A stretch of 64,000 nt of DNA, taken from assembly GCF_006874645.1 (NCBI RefSeq), contig NZ_CP030082.1:3844001-3908000 (forward strand). Reading direction: 5' to 3'. Made by a program: the position numbers and the translations under genes. Shown here piece by piece: positions 45,495 through 51,926 of this stretch. The notes under the pieces are model-generated. The model ran no database searches. It was given only the letters and a program-made list of their open reading frames with translations, and was not told the origin of the DNA. Numbering within the stretch: position 1 is the first letter of the stretch; the number at the start of each line of letters is the position of its first letter. This stretch comes from Bdellovibrio sp. ZAP7. GTDB taxonomy: Bacteria > Bdellovibrionota > Bdellovibrionia > Bdellovibrionales > Bdellovibrionaceae.

Positions 45495-45507
45495 GGAGCA
45501 AGGCTAA

Positions 45508-45547
45508 GGTCGCGGAACCTAATTGGGTTCTGCGACCTCTTATTTTG
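45508..45547 (+). terminator. rho-independent terminator
   Basis: AGGTCGC-G-GAACC and GGTTC-T-GCGACCT pair with one G-T wobble around a 6-base loop; CTTATTTT follows. It ends the esterase gene and faces the convergent exonuclease gene. Confidence 0.75.
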
Positions 45548-45653: not shown

Positions 45654-46541
45654 CTACGACGAATAATTCAAAATAGATTTGAAATTATGTGTGAGTGGAA
45701 TGTCCTTGATCGAAAAATTTACTGTTATTGGTAAGTTAATACTTGCTAAGAGGTCTTTCGCCAATTCCTTCGGCACTATTTTGAACCAAATTTTCTCTCT
45801 AGGATTCCATCTAAATCCCGACTTCTTAAATAAGTGCCTCTCTTCGAATGTGGCATTTTCTATGGAAATCATGGATTTGGGTTGATGGGAATTAATTAAT
45901 AATTCATTAAAATAAGTACGACCACCCAGATCCTTAAAGGTAAGCAGATGGATTAGAGAGTCTACATCCGTCCTAGCCCGATGAGACTGATTAAAAAAAC
46001 CATGATATATGCATAGCAAATTTAGCTTAGCAGAATCGTAACCTTTTTTTATCCAGTCAATATTCTGCATGGAGCATCCCCAGACAACATCTAAATCTTT
46101 ATGAGAACGCTCCAAAAATGCTCTGTCAAAACTTGCGTTATGTGAAATAATCATTTGGGAGTTTTCAATATACTTATCGAAATCATTCCAATCTATTTTA
46201 TTTCCCGCCAATACCTGATCCGAAAGACCGGTTACGATCTGAATATTCTGAGAAACAGGTACTCCTGGATCATTTAAAGAAGAAAACACCTCTTCCGAAA
46301 TGGCCATGACCTCACCAGTATGGATATCGAAAATAATATTACGAGCACAAAGCTCTATAATTCTATCTTCGACCTGATTTAAACCTGTGGTCTCAACATC
46401 TAGAACCGTAGCGATCCTCGTTGAAAGCGACGGACTCAATGTAGAGAAATTCTTGAGAGGCACAGTAAATCCAGCTAGTGCTTCCAACACTACCTTTGTC
46501 TGTGCCTCATTCATTCCAATCCATTTAAAACGACCAGTCAT
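45654..46541 (-). CDS. DEDDh 3'-5' exonuclease with a C-terminal DUF5710-like domain, RT-associated
   Basis: This 295-aa protein has the DnaQ-like motifs Exo I D48-x-E50 (DVETTGL), Exo II D139 (SHNASFDRAF) and Exo III H187/D192 (SHRARTDVDS): a complete DEDDh active site. The C-terminal part (about 225-265) has KKSGFRWNPREKIWFKI, similar to the small 'x-G-x-R-W-x-x-x-x-x-x-W' domains (DUF5710-like) seen in phage and plasmid proteins. It is divergent, across 48 bases, from the RT-nitrilase gene, so shared control is likely. AT-rich like that gene. It could degrade cDNA or phage DNA; this is inference. Confidence 0.85.
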   Translation of the reverse strand: MTGRFKWIGMNEAQTKVVLEALAGFTVPLKNFSTLSPSLSTRIATVLDVETTGLNQVEDRIIELCARNIIFDIHTGEVMAISEEVFSSLNDPGVPVSQNIQIVTGLSDQVLAGNKIDWNDFDKYIENSQMIISHNASFDRAFLERSHKDLDVVWGCSMQNIDWIKKGYDSAKLNLLCIYHGFFNQSHRARTDVDSLIHLLTFKDLGGRTYFNELLINSHQPKSMISIENATFEERHLFKKSGFRWNPREKIWFKIVPKELAKDLLASINLPITVNFSIKDIPLTHNFKSILNYSS

Positions 46542-46566
46542 GAAAAATAAACTACCTTATATTTGT

Positions 46567-46579
46567 TTACAGTTTGTAA
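46567..46579. promoter_or_regulatory. inverted repeat in the divergent exonuclease/RT promoter region
   Basis: TTACA-GTT-TGTAA is a perfect 5+5 inverted repeat in the 48-base gap between the two start codons, a place where one bound protein could control both genes. No confident promoter hexamers were found for either. Confidence 0.35.
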
Positions 46580-46589
46580 TATTTCAAAC

Positions 46590-49500
46590 ATGGATCTATT
46601 TGATAGTAGCAGCAAACGCCTAACCGAACAGCAGAAACTTTGGATTTTCTCAAAAATTCGCGAGTTCTTTAAGACAGATCTCTATCTTTCCCATATTGAA
46701 AAAGACTTTCTTCTATCGCCTCTGGCGACCGCACTATACAAGTCAAATACAGCAGCGGAACTAATTGCGTTGCTAAGCGACCATGATAATTCCACTGGAA
46801 TTTCAATAATTCGAAAGATTAAAGGAGGAGGAGCTTTAACCTATGACTACCCAGCTCTATCCTTCCAAGTCCAATGCTTAATGTACCTATGGCCAAAAGT
46901 TGATGACCTTTACAGAGAGGGTCTTTATGCTAAAACGAAGGCTCTTCGGCATAACTTCGGACATAAGCCAAATCTCTCCTACAATCCCGCTGACTTAGTC
47001 GGCGCGTCCGGAGATATTCATATTAATAGTTTTTTAAAAGAACCATTTCAAGATCAATACAATGGCTTTCAACAAGAAGTAATAACAAGTGCTACTAACA
47101 TTGTTCAGAAAGGTGCAACCGCATTACTAATTCAATCTGATATCGAATCGTTCTTTCACAAACTCAGTTTGAAAGACTTAAGATATTTTTTAAAAGACAT
47201 ATTAAAAATTGATATCTACGACCCTTATCTTAGGACACTTCAGGAAAAATTTGGATTTCAATCTCTTCCGATCGGTTGGATTTTTAGCGGCTTCATCGCA
47301 GATATGTTTCTAGAAGGATTACAAAGAGAATTTCAAATCAGGATTCAAAAAGATTTTCAGGTAGATCTGAAAAAAAACTTAAGAAAATACCTCAATCAAA
47401 ATGTTCCTTCGGGTCGCGCCACGGACGAGCTCGAAGAAAAAATTAGAAACTCTTTGCAAAATTCTAAAATTAAATTTTCAGAAAGCTTCAATTACGTCGA
47501 CGATGTGATCTTCGTTCTTAAATACATAAACTTCGATGAAGAGAAGGATGATTTCTATTTAGAAGCATTTCACTCCGTAGTTGGGTCTTCAATTTTAAGT
47601 TGTGCCAATAAAATTATTAATGACTACTACGGATTTTTAGGCAGCTTGAGATTATACACCTTAGAAGAACATAAAGCCAAAATTATGTTTTTCGATAAGT
47701 CCAACATTTCTGCGCTGAAAACAAATTTTCAAAAAATGATCGCAAGAGGTACATACTCAAAAGAAGAGCCTAATTTATGGGCCAAACTGGATGATTTCCT
47801 ATTACCCATGGACAATGACCTCTCTATTAGTGAAAGAAATCAGTTCTTTGCTCATATCAATAACATTAAAAAGCTCCTTATAGAAGGTGATCGAATCACC
47901 ACTGACGACAGAAATGACGTCTTTCAAAAAATTATTCTGAAACTAGAAAAGGATGGTGCCCGGTATATTTATTCGGTTTTCAGTTTAATTGAAGCATTTA
48001 TGACTTCAGATCCCGAGGGGCGAGATTACTACCTCGAACGCATCACCGTGATAGTTCATCTCTTCATCGGAAGAGAATATCCACTAGATATATGGTTAAA
48101 GCTATTTAAGGGTTACTTCTTCCTATATTCACGTCATGGCTATCCGACAGACATAAAATTCTTTCAACACTTCACAACGTTCTATCTAAATAGAAAATCT
48201 TTTATAGATCGCACACATATTATTGCCGATGATCTCGATCTCCTGGAGGCCGTGCACGCGACGTACCTGTTAAAAACAAGGATAGCCTTAGGATCTAAGG
48301 TTGATCGTCGCGAAGAAATTGATTCCAAGCAGGGGTACGGCAAACTATCGAGATACTTTGAATACATACAAAAGAATAAATATGATTTGAGTCGACACGA
48401 GCTTATTCATTCTTTTGACGTATATTCATTCTCTCATATTGTAAAAAAATTGGCCAAAACCAGCGAACAATGGAATCTGAAATACTACCGAATCGTTATA
48501 CGAAATATAAGAAATCGCCTAGGCCCTCAAGAGGCGGACTTTTTCTTTCGACTTACAATTTTTGAAGTCTCACCTCATTCCACTGAAAAGGAAGTTGATG
48601 AATTCGTCACCTATTTAAGAAAAGGTGAGTTTCTAAAGAAGTCACTAATTGAAGACTTCCGAAAGCTAAATCGCTATGCCGATTCAATAAATAAAAAAAT
48701 GGGCAACTCGTATATATCTCGTCTAAAATATTTTAAGTCACAGCTTGAAAACGAGAGTATTGAATTCATACCAAATCTACTCGGCAGCTCAAGTTGGGAC
48801 AATCCAAAAGCCGTCGCATTCTTATTGTCGTGCATTGACCAGAACCATTCAATTGACGTAAAACGGCGTTTTATTTTCACCTTATCTACCTATTTTTCAT
48901 CACGACTCATCGATTATATGGTGATGCCAAAAAGTAATAAAAGATCCGGCTTATTCGTAATAAAAGCACTGGCACTAATGAGCAAATGGAACGTAAGAGA
49001 TGATGGACAATACATTGACGAGGTAAAACTAAAAAGACAACTCTATCGAATTTTATCAAAGGAGCTCAACTTTTACGGAAGAGCTGGACAACTTAATCGC
49101 TTCAGGAGCGAAGGAGTTATAAATATTGATTTTGATTCGATCCTTAAAGAGTTTTCTCACGGATTGCCCGCTGAAGCCAAAAATAGCATCACTGTTACTG
49201 TCGCTCCAATAAATTACGAATGGCATTCTACCTTTGACGACGTCAATGGCATGAGATTTAAGACCGACAAATCAGTACAAGAACAACTGGACTACAAAAT
49301 TCAGGCGGCGATTTCAGAGGCGCGAAAACAAAAAGCCAACTTTATTATAATACCGGAGCTAACCTTACCGCGGAAATATTTAGATCAATATTTGAGACAA
49401 TGTGCAGATGCCGATGTCATTTTGATAGCTGGACTAGAGTATGAACATTTTCGCAATAATAGAATGATCAATTCGACTATCATTTCCTTTCCCATAGATA

Positions 49501-50117
49501 GAAAGAAAAACCCTCTTACCAAGAACTATCTTGCTTTCGAGCAAATTAAGCATTTTCCAGCAGCAAAGGAAAAGTCCAGTTTGGTTGACAACGGATTTTC
49601 GTATTACCCGGGAAAGAATCTTTTCCTATTTTCGTCTGAGACGATTAGCAACTTTGCGGTTTTAACTTGTTCTGATTTTCTATCACTTCGCCTTAGACTA
49701 AAGCTGCAGGAACGCATTCAGTTGCTATTTGTGCCTGCGCAGAATCCCGATGGCACTAGTTATGATCATATCGCTGAATCATCAATTCGAGACCTCCATT
49801 GTTACACAGTGATTTGCAACAATCAGACTCTCGGGGGGAGCTTTATTTATGGACCGATGTATGAACGAAGAGATCGTATTTCATTAAAGGTTGAAGGTAA
49901 GATTATTCCGGAATTTGCTACGGTTTCTATTTTCCCTCAAGTTCTTATCAGCTCTCAGAATAGCGACAGCCAGATTCCATTTCGAAAAAGTGATCACAAG
50001 AAGATCAAAGGTAAAAAATTTGAAAATATCCAATTGCACGATCTAAAACAAACACCGCCAGACTGGGGATATCCCAAAGAACGTCAGAAAAGATCGAAAG
50101 TTCTCCCGAAAAAATAG
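46590..50117 (+). CDS. reverse transcriptase-nitrilase fusion (class 1 defence-associated RT, UG1-like)
   Basis: This 1175-aa protein has an RT domain at about residues 90-360: motif A QSDIESFF with D184, the LPIGWIFSGFIADMF motif near 226-240, and the catalytic Y302-V-D-D305. A long helical region follows (about 370-860). Residues about 866-1115 form a nitrilase (C-N hydrolase) domain with the triad E923 (IIPELTLP), K987 (EQIKHFPA) and C1027 (LTCSDF). RT fused to nitrilase is the architecture of class 1 DRT (UG1/UG5-type) antiphage systems. ATG 46590 was chosen over an upstream TTG. AT-rich, unlike the core genes; a strong terminator follows. Confidence 0.9.
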   Translation: MDLFDSSSKRLTEQQKLWIFSKIREFFKTDLYLSHIEKDFLLSPLATALYKSNTAAELIALLSDHDNSTGISIIRKIKGGGALTYDYPALSFQVQCLMYLWPKVDDLYREGLYAKTKALRHNFGHKPNLSYNPADLVGASGDIHINSFLKEPFQDQYNGFQQEVITSATNIVQKGATALLIQSDIESFFHKLSLKDLRYFLKDILKIDIYDPYLRTLQEKFGFQSLPIGWIFSGFIADMFLEGLQREFQIRIQKDFQVDLKKNLRKYLNQNVPSGRATDELEEKIRNSLQNSKIKFSESFNYVDDVIFVLKYINFDEEKDDFYLEAFHSVVGSSILSCANKIINDYYGFLGSLRLYTLEEHKAKIMFFDKSNISALKTNFQKMIARGTYSKEEPNLWAKLDDFLLPMDNDLSISERNQFFAHINNIKKLLIEGDRITTDDRNDVFQKIILKLEKDGARYIYSVFSLIEAFMTSDPEGRDYYLERITVIVHLFIGREYPLDIWLKLFKGYFFLYSRHGYPTDIKFFQHFTTFYLNRKSFIDRTHIIADDLDLLEAVHATYLLKTRIALGSKVDRREEIDSKQGYGKLSRYFEYIQKNKYDLSRHELIHSFDVYSFSHIVKKLAKTSEQWNLKYYRIVIRNIRNRLGPQEADFFFRLTIFEVSPHSTEKEVDEFVTYLRKGEFLKKSLIEDFRKLNRYADSINKKMGNSYISRLKYFKSQLENESIEFIPNLLGSSSWDNPKAVAFLLSCIDQNHSIDVKRRFIFTLSTYFSSRLIDYMVMPKSNKRSGLFVIKALALMSKWNVRDDGQYIDEVKLKRQLYRILSKELNFYGRAGQLNRFRSEGVINIDFDSILKEFSHGLPAEAKNSITVTVAPINYEWHSTFDDVNGMRFKTDKSVQEQLDYKIQAAISEARKQKANFIIIPELTLPRKYLDQYLRQCADADVILIAGLEYEHFRNNRMINSTIISFPIDRKKNPLTKNYLAFEQIKHFPAAKEKSSLVDNGFSYYPGKNLFLFSSETISNFAVLTCSDFLSLRLRLKLQERIQLLFVPAQNPDGTSYDHIAESSIRDLHCYTVICNNQTLGGSFIYGPMYERRDRISLKVEGKIIPEFATVSIFPQVLISSQNSDSQIPFRKSDHKKIKGKKFENIQLHDLKQTPPDWGYPKERQKRSKVLPKK

Positions 50118-50174: not shown

Positions 50175-50191
50175 TCGAAAATTGGTGGAGG
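50175..50191. repeat. direct repeat copy 1, tmRNA 3'-end-like attachment site
   Basis: TCGAAAATTGGTGGAGG is repeated exactly at 51374-51390. On the minus strand it reads CCTCCACCA followed by ATTTTCGA; CCTCCACCA is the last nine bases of the tmRNA gene 1.4 kb away. It is the typical scar of integration at an RNA gene's 3' end. Confidence 0.65.
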
Positions 50192-50284
50192 AGCTATCAA
50201 TTAGAAATAACCGCTCTCATTAAATGTACAGGAATGCTGATCAAAGACTGACTTGAATAGCTTGGTTTAAGACCAATTACGAAA

Positions 50285-51331
50285 CTAAAGATTAAATCGT
50301 AATCCATTTAATAGGTACTCTTCCTCAAATATCCTAAGCTCCCTAGTATCCCTAGAGCACTTAAAATCCACAAATCCAAGAAACAGCTGATTTCCGTTTC
50401 CTTCATAAAAATGAAGTAAGTACTTACCGCCCTCAAATTTAATTCTTAGACTACTTGAAGGCGTATTTTTCATTTCCTTAAAGATAGAGATCTCTCGTTT
50501 TTTTCGATCTAACTCTAGAATTTTATTTAGGTCTTCCCGAGTATAAGTTTCTTTTTCTAGACCCAAAAGACGCGCATTTCGCGCACTTTCATCTATTTTA
50601 ACTTCCAAATCTCTCGGCAGACTCTTTATTTTGGACTCAAGATCTTTAAAGCCCATATCATCGCCAGTAAATAATTGAGCCATAAAATCCAAATACTTTA
50701 TATAAAAAATAGCTGATTTCTCGTGGACTCTATATGTGCATATCGGCTCTGACTGTTTTCCATTCGAATTAACTTTCCGACCTTTCAATTCTCTATTCGA
50801 CAGATTTTCTGCATAGGCGTTCATAGTTCTTGTAAGACGTTGATTTACACTCAATAAAAAAGAATGATGTATCGATGAAAAGAAACCGTTAGCCAAATAG
50901 ACATAGACAAATACAAAAACGAAAAATACTAGCTTATTCGGTTTCCATAGAAAATCAGAACACCTCTCAAACCAACTCCGAAATTTACCAGGCGCCAAGA
51001 CAGCACTAACACGACTTGAAAAGGCAATCAGAGCCCATATTATAAAAATCGCAGCGACAGCGATCCAGTACTTCTGAAATACATAACGTACGTCTATAAA
51101 ACTATCTCGAAATTTAAATAACTCTTTAAAAAGCTTGGTCGGACCACTATAGTTCCAAACAATTTTTTCATATGCTTCGCCGGATTCAAATCTCAAAAAA
51201 AATGAAATCCAATATGCTAAATCATTTAGCGCTTTAGACAAAAGAAAATATACAGCAATCAGGTAGATTGGGCGTCTAAGAGGGACATATAAATAAAGGT
51301 GTTTAAAATAGTTTGTAATAGTGCCCACCAT
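50285..51331 (-). CDS. membrane protein between tmRNA-like repeats, function unknown
   Basis: This 348-aa protein has three membrane helices (about residues 18-42, 88-108 and 130-152) and a C-terminal soluble part (about 160-348) with a Lys/Glu-rich helical stretch and a final beta region (SLRIKFEGGKYLLHFYEGNG). No family was recognised. The gene fills almost all of the 1.2 kb between two exact 17-bp direct repeats, is AT-rich, and converges on the RT-nitrilase gene. A defence role (membrane effector) or a cargo gene of a mini-island is possible but unproven. Confidence 0.75.
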   Translation of the reverse strand: MVGTITNYFKHLYLYVPLRRPIYLIAVYFLLSKALNDLAYWISFFLRFESGEAYEKIVWNYSGPTKLFKELFKFRDSFIDVRYVFQKYWIAVAAIFIIWALIAFSSRVSAVLAPGKFRSWFERCSDFLWKPNKLVFFVFVFVYVYLANGFFSSIHHSFLLSVNQRLTRTMNAYAENLSNRELKGRKVNSNGKQSEPICTYRVHEKSAIFYIKYLDFMAQLFTGDDMGFKDLESKIKSLPRDLEVKIDESARNARLLGLEKETYTREDLNKILELDRKKREISIFKEMKNTPSSSLRIKFEGGKYLLHFYEGNGNQLFLGFVDFKCSRDTRELRIFEEEYLLNGLRFNL

Positions 51332-51373: not shown

Positions 51374-51400
51374 TCGAAAATTGGTGGAGGCGACAGGAAT
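51374..51400. repeat. direct repeat copy 2, displaced tmRNA/tRNA 3' end
   Basis: 51374-51390 is the second copy of the 17-bp repeat. On the minus strand, 51400-51382 reads ATTCCTGTCGCCTCCACCA, which differs from the tmRNA 3' end ATTCCCCCCGCCTCCACCA (51599-51581) at three positions only. A GC-rich fragment without a coding assignment follows at 51391-51470. It is best read as a former tmRNA 3' end displaced by an insertion. Confidence 0.65.
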
Positions 51401-51580: not shown

Positions 51581-51926
51581 TGGTGGAGGCGGGGGGAATT
51601 GAACCCCCGTCCGCAAGTGATCCGCGATAAGGCGCTACATACTTAGTCAGTGTTTTAGATTGGTCCTCGGGCTTCCACAGACAAAATCCCTAAGACCTCT
51701 CCCCCAGTAAATTTAAGCGAGTCTGCTGGAGAAAACCCAACACGCCGAGGTCCCTAAATGACGATCAATCCAAGAGCGGAACCACCTCAAGGTTGATCGT
51801 GCAGATTAATTAAGCTGCAAGTGCGTAATCGTTGCCAATTACAAAATGGACGTTTTTATCGAGGTCCTCATCCGCCCCGGTATGCTCCTTATGTTTCAGC
51901 ACCCACGTCGAAGCCAGTACGCCCCC
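51581..51926 (-). ncRNA. ssrA: tmRNA
   Basis: The minus strand starts GGGGGCGTACTGGCTTCGAC (classical tmRNA 5' end) and ends with the T-arm GGGGGTTCAATTCCCCCC, then GCCTCCACCA, which pairs with the 5' GGGGGCG to form the acceptor stem. The tag reading frame (codons 51813-51836, stop TAA 51810-51812) encodes GNDYALAA, the usual ALAA-ending degradation tag. It rescues stalled ribosomes with SmpB. CCA is encoded. The length is 346 bases. Confidence 0.95.

Follow-up and report, generated by a model that had tools for sequence, protein, structure and literature searches.

Bdellovibrio sp. ZAP7 encodes, beside its tmRNA gene, a reverse transcriptase (RT) fused to a nitrilase domain that directly adjoins a DEDDh 3'-5' exonuclease, and the sequences of the two suggest that they probably constitute a two-gene accessory anti-phage defence cassette. 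The catalytic residues of both proteins are intact, such adjacency recurs across a family of related RTs, exonucleases were recruited to these RTs on at least two separate occasions, and the pair occupies a variable slot in the chromosome.

A divergent gene pair in a variable slot beside tmRNA

The window, by which we mean the whole 64,000-nucleotide stretch of DNA analysed here (NZ_CP030082.1, positions 3,844,001 to 3,908,000), belongs to a complete 4.12-Mb chromosome. Its relevant features are given below in window positions; residues of the RT-nitrilase are numbered from the ATG at 46590, the start codon that also gives the 48-bp gap between the genes.

45507..45538, + strand: terminator-like hairpin 3' of a conserved esterase gene; presumed left edge of the slot
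45654..46541, - strand: DEDDh 3'-5' exonuclease gene, 295 aa, ATG at 46541; PRK09182 family, long form
Exonuclease, catalytic residues: D48, E50, D139, H187, D192
Exonuclease, about residues 225-260: C-terminal DUF5710-like domain
46542..46589: intergenic spacer of 48 bp, flanked by the two divergent start codons
46590..50117, + strand: RT-nitrilase gene, 1175 aa from the ATG at 46590; reading frame open from a TTG at 46563
RT-nitrilase, about residues 150-350: RT domain with motif-A Asp184 and YVDD at 302-305
RT-nitrilase, middle part: long, helical, between the RT and nitrilase domains
RT-nitrilase, about residues 861-1131: nitrilase domain with Glu923, Lys987 and Cys1027
RT-nitrilase, C-terminal end: conserved KQxPPDW
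50180..50201: degenerate tmRNA 3'-end repeat (77% to the reference copy); putative right edge of the two-gene cassette
51379..51400: second tmRNA 3'-end-like repeat, where homology with sister genome G143 restarts
51581..51926, - strand: tmRNA (ssrA) gene; the variable slot ends on the right at the 3' end of this gene

These coordinates agree with the head-to-head layout and 48-base separation recorded in a first-pass annotation of the same DNA. Its remark that both genes are AT-rich also holds, with a GC content of 0.375 for each (37.5%) against 0.454-0.458 in the flanks (45-46%).

The nearest relatives that retain both flanks are the sister genomes G147 (93% identical) and G143 (85%). The DNA of G147 matches the window up to 45535, in the esterase terminator, and again from 51577, at the tmRNA 3' end, while that of G143 matches up to 45516, in the same terminator, and again from 51379. 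The contents of the slot differ in both, and the RT-exonuclease pair is therefore variable cargo beside tmRNA. As read from sequence, the slot of G147 holds a 915-aa DNA methyltransferase/restriction-like protein and a RES/Xre-like pair, and that of G143 two unrelated short genes, for a carboxymuconolactone-decarboxylase-like protein and an Rrf2-like regulator.

A 22-nt repeat resembling the tmRNA 3' end is present at 50180, 51379 and 51578 and sets the exonuclease and RT genes apart from a membrane-protein ORF. The two genes thus appear to form one cassette ending at 50180; a search for its left-hand attachment repeat found none that was convincing. The membrane-protein ORF (50285-51331, - strand) lies between two of the tmRNA-3'-end-like repeats and encodes, at 35% GC, a protein of 348 aa for which two or three membrane segments are predicted. 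It is without a family match and without homologues at the related RT loci, and is possibly a separate inserted cassette.

Sequence and structure of the two proteins

The exonuclease matches Pfam RNase_T (6e-11) and, with 212.5 bits, exceeds the curated cut-off of 207 for NCBIfam PRK09182, the usual members of which are solitary, unlike this divergent copy adjoining an RT. Asp48, Glu50, Asp139, His187 and Asp192 are invariant in 30/30 aligned relatives, and the extra C-terminal domain is common to most of the aligned family; the earlier description of a complete DEDDh exonuclease carrying an additional domain is thus accurate. Its structure model is confident (pLDDT 89) and comes closest to the exonuclease domains of DinG, DnaQ, PolC and TREX1; the DnaQ/TREX/ExoI-like fold is matched at Z 16.6-19.5, with E. 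coli ExoI scoring Z 16.6.

In the RT-nitrilase, motif A, the YVDD and a complete nitrilase Glu-Lys-Cys triad are all present where the first-pass annotation had placed them (E923, K987, C1027). Across seven aligned family members the catalytic Asp184, Asp304 and Asp305 are invariant, with FADD replacing YVDD in one, as is the triad Glu923/Lys987/Cys1027. The identification as an RT-nitrilase, made from sequence, proved right when checked with PADLOC, which returned RT_UG5-nitrilase (E 4e-50) and RTasNitrilase (3e-40), the matched part being mainly the C-terminal region. Its assignment to class 1 of the defence-associated RTs was mistaken: class 1 UG/Abi RTs are of the AbiA/AbiK/AbiP2 kind, and RT-nitrilases belong to class 3 (PMC13275509, PMC12483538). 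In the predicted structure, residues 860-1131 adopt an amidase/nitrilase fold (Z 14-15.7, rmsd mostly 3-4 Å, about 215 residues aligned). The model of the whole protein, built from six sequences, is weak (mean pLDDT 62, pTM 0.49), and therefore only the RT and nitrilase domains were used in structure comparison; DRT1 is not among the matches listed for these two domain models.

A small family of divergent RT-nitrilases

The ZAP7 protein belongs to a small family of divergent, long RT-nitrilases comprising six lineages from Bdellovibrionota and Leptospira. A family profile search recovered full-length members in 5/369 genomes of the phylum, with Leptospira plasmids providing the sixth lineage. 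When genome contigs were searched with a single RT sequence no match was obtained, and an alignment query returned three loci only, already known from the phylum search; phage records gave no match. In the RT tree the window protein joins that of G040 (support 100/99 without and 93/96 with outgroup); the two RTs are 35-36% identical and their exonucleases 34-35%. A further member is found in G191, a genome placed in the same family as the window genome.

The best family match of the window RT is UG5 RT-nitrilase (PADLOC PDLC03780), which shares the combination of RT and nitrilase. However, the match mainly covers the C-terminal third, whereas in canonical UG5-like genes (E 1e-148 to 1e-215) it extends across most of the gene. 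In a tree from which UG1 and the other class 3 RTs are absent, the family is separate from three canonical UG5-like proteins, which form a clade at 100/100. By these comparisons the lineage appears to be a divergent one that adjoins UG5 and is not demonstrably inside it.

DRT1 (UG1, class 3; PDB 9YFD, PMC13275509) likewise combines an RT bearing YxDD with a C-terminal nitrilase Glu-Lys-Cys triad and is of similar length (1229 aa). The only PDB sequence match of the family profile is to the DRT1 nitrilase segment from the catalytic Cys1116 (E 8.5e-10). The RT half is without a sequence match, and PADLOC Drt1a reaches only 51 bits, restricted to the nitrilase segment 906-1113 and not full-length. 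The priming Ser402 of DRT1 is reported not to be conserved among other class 3 DRTs (PMC13275509). The known neighbour of DRT1, drt1b (about 18%), encodes a membrane protein; the window RT adjoins a DEDDh exonuclease, and the membrane-protein ORF at 50285-51331 is set off between two tmRNA-like repeats.

Recurrent adjacency of RT and exonuclease genes

A DEDDh exonuclease directly adjoins the RT in four of the six lineages. The genes lie head to head in the window and in G040, while the exonuclease is downstream of the RT on the same strand in G191, after a gap of 21 bp, and in Leptospira, after 11 bp, the Leptospira pair being present in all five plasmid records found and in two viral contigs. 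The head-to-head order, which the first-pass annotation had proposed to check for conservation, is therefore kept in one other lineage and replaced in the remaining two. At the RT loci of G003 and G021 there is no exonuclease beside the RT. Six RT-nitrilases from outside the family, three of them canonical UG5-like and three plasmid-borne in E. coli, Sinorhizobium and Bradyrhizobium, also lack one in the stretch examined (0/6, including 0/3 for the UG5-like genes), with two of these stretches beginning so close to the RT that one side is hardly visible.

A generous estimate puts adjacency by chance at about 0.34% per lineage, a rate at which four of six lineages would show it with a probability of about 2e-9; the figure is rough, being computed from about six DEDDh matches per genome and an assumed 3500 genes, with random gene order and independent lineages. 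On this sequence evidence the RT-exonuclease partnership, which had earlier been proposed from the arrangement of the two genes, exceeds chance. The first-pass annotation had named rare co-occurrence or a scattered exonuclease family as what would speak against the pairing, and half of this is seen: the two lineages lack the gene, and members of its family are common and for the most part solitary. Given these facts, and its absence from the six outside RT-nitrilases, the exonuclease is best regarded as an optional partner. Among viral contigs, queried with the two exonuclease forms, 2/160 exonuclease loci adjoin such an RT, both of the Leptospira kind; the generic RT profile used there was built from only five sequences, and other RT kinds could therefore escape the search.

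Some individual loci are of separate interest. In G021 the exonuclease-less RT is followed by a DUF2971 gene, 57 bp downstream on the same strand (locus L037, 6601-11064). A Leptospira mayottensis plasmid carries an N-terminally truncated copy of the RT-linked exonuclease, without the RT, beside IS transposases (L130, 5956-6552). In a Leptospira noguchii plasmid, the gene just 3' of the RT-exonuclease pair (L044, 10586-11602) matches pP_pnuc_1, a predicted pPIWI-associated nuclease domain (E 5e-18).

Origins of the exonucleases

PRK09182-like matches are found in 349/369 genomes at a loose threshold, and in 56 above the curated cut-off, including every searched genome of the genus. ZAP7 itself has a second close copy, 39% to the window exonuclease, at a separate RT-free site, and nearly all of about 40 further exonuclease loci have unrelated neighbours. 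The exonuclease tree splits at 100/100 into a long form (window, G040 and solitary copies) and a short form (G191, Leptospira and solitary copies), the long form occurring in the head-to-head pairs and the short form in the downstream, same-strand pairs. Each arrangement thus has an exonuclease lineage of its own, which implies two or more recruitments, to opposite flanks of the RT gene; what recurs is therefore the activity and not one gene pair. Within the long form, a group of the window, G040 and G347 copies is supported at only 84/72. A clade of the window and G040 exonucleases alone was rejected (p 0.0035), with the G347 copy grouping with that of G040; the G347 gene is located where its contig ends, and no RT is visible there.

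The G191 exonuclease is sister (100/99) to one from G254, where an AbiP2-type RT (657 bits), a short DEDDh exonuclease and an AAA ATPase lie in a row on one strand, with the exonuclease in the middle (L126, contig C17, 736-4714, - strand). This locus is a single occurrence on a 4.8-kb contig. Three AbiP2-type RTs on plasmids have no annotated exonuclease neighbour, and only 1/369 genomes has a full-length AbiP2 match; the AbiP2-exonuclease link thus stands at one case.

A candidate brake on RT-made DNA

The class 3 systems DRT1, DRT5S and DRT5L carry out template-free, protein-primed DNA synthesis (PMC13275509). Defence by DRT1 needs both the RT and the nitrilase, and its adducts, which are ssDNA, build filaments that keep the nitrilase dormant; they are shortened by ExoI in vitro and measure about 17-30 nt in natively purified or ExoI-treated DRT1 (PMC13275509). 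RecBCD restrains DRT3 (PMC13174585). In the case of DRT9, host ExoI is required for viability, and T5 gp58 triggers the system by guarding DNA 3' ends (PMC12483538). A DEDDh 3'-5' exonuclease limiting the build-up of protein-primed ssDNA is what DRT9 would have in common with the present pair, the likeness being a functional analogy only: its ExoI is supplied in trans by a host gene and belongs to another DEDDh subfamily, and DRT9 is a class 2 system that uses an RNA template and lacks a nitrilase.

From these precedents we infer a course of events in which the RT-nitrilase, by analogy with DRT1 and DRT5S/L, most likely makes template-free, protein-primed DNA attached to itself, and this self-attached DNA, as in DRT1, would control the nitrilase effector. 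The exonuclease would most likely trim the attached DNA from its free 3' end, with the consequence that adducts would neither lengthen nor accumulate without infection. Phage proteins occupying DNA 3' ends or ssDNA would then upset the balance, releasing the nitrilase and resulting in abortive infection. We see an even chance that the exonuclease is such a brake on RT-made DNA, encoded in cis and corresponding to host ExoI. The first-pass annotation had offered processing of RT products or attack on phage DNA as its role; the former is the better half of that suggestion, and the latter found no support. On a more tentative note, and with somewhat less than an even chance, we propose that this RT-nitrilase lineage encodes in cis a 3'-5' exonuclease of its own that serves as a brake or sensor for protein-linked DNA. 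Polymerase and exonuclease would form a toxin-antitoxin-like pair whose antitoxin is an enzyme directed at the DNA product; two exonuclease lineages would have supplied it, in at least two recruitments, and it may have been exchanged with AbiP2-type systems.

Several facts speak against a brake. The G003 and G021 RTs have no exonuclease beside them, and the exonuclease is therefore dispensable. Another PRK09182 exonuclease, present in the window genome and in its genus, could take over this task, and DRT1 is non-toxic in E. coli, with short adducts, without a dedicated exonuclease (PMC13275509). By sequence, moreover, the RT half is too divergent for DRT1 chemistry to be assumed.

The genomic evidence for a brake would equally fit an activator, in which the exonuclease, upon infection, removes the adducts keeping the RT-nitrilase dormant and thereby frees the nitrilase. 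DRT1 adducts do drive quiescent filaments from which release is needed at infection (PMC13275509). However, DRT1 defence and oligomers need RT activity, with RT-dead DRT1 being an inactive monomer (PMC13275509), so that complete adduct removal should turn the system off; as infection-specific action would also need an extra step, we consider an activator unlikely. If the exonuclease instead proofreads or shapes cDNA copied from a cellular or phage template, its structural proximity to the replicative proofreading domains of PolC and DnaQ, and the 94% co-occurrence of UG9 RTs with PRK14975 (PMC8934634), would find a ready explanation. Yet the characterised class 3 DRTs are template-free (PMC13275509), and Rfam models detect no RNA at the locus besides tmRNA in a search that a novel RNA would escape; a proofreading role is accordingly improbable.

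The remaining alternatives uncouple the exonuclease from the RT product. The intact DEDDh fold and residues, together with the divergent two-gene layout, would suit a second effector for the destruction of phage or host DNA, acting independently of that product. Such an effector is difficult to reconcile with relatives that are mostly solitary, present in every searched genome of the genus and seen in no defence context, and the RT already has an effector domain; we give it little credence. That two genes entered the same slot separately, as chance or defence-island neighbours, is made conceivable by the varied cargo of the slot, the commonness of the exonuclease family and the two RT lineages lacking it, but the direct adjacency in most lineages of the RT family and its rarity among viral-contig exonuclease loci render this improbable. 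A brake on RT-made DNA is the preferred reading.

General significance

Linkage of RTs and exonucleases as such is already known. The name of the PADLOC family RTasSbcB (PDLC03817), compared here by name, records an RT-associated SbcB-type exonuclease, and UG9 RTs co-occur with PRK14975, which NCBIfam names a bifunctional 3'-5' exonuclease/DNA polymerase (PMC8934634). The present pair differs from both: the window exonuclease has no match to RTasSbcB at E 0.1, and the one beside the AbiP2-type RT only E 0.005, while the partner of UG9 is a polymerase-exonuclease and a nitrilase is not reported for UG9 in that study. We found no description of an exonuclease partner for RT-nitrilases in the literature searched, which did not include the main UG/Abi survey (Mestre et al. 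2022), and the novelty of the RT-nitrilase and exonuclease pair is therefore provisional.

The known nuclease brakes on DRTs, ExoI for DRT9 and RecBCD for DRT3, are general host genes. A DRT with its own exonuclease, if this is what the pair represents, would place the balance of polymerase and nuclease inside the system, where it would be testable with two purified proteins, and could reveal whether activating the nitrilase depends on how long the adducts are. The pair further draws attention to the tmRNA-side slot in Bdellovibrio-like bacteria, which in a sister genome holds other probable defence genes. The recurrent acquisition of exonucleases by related RTs suggests that a brake on DNA synthesis is built into such systems.
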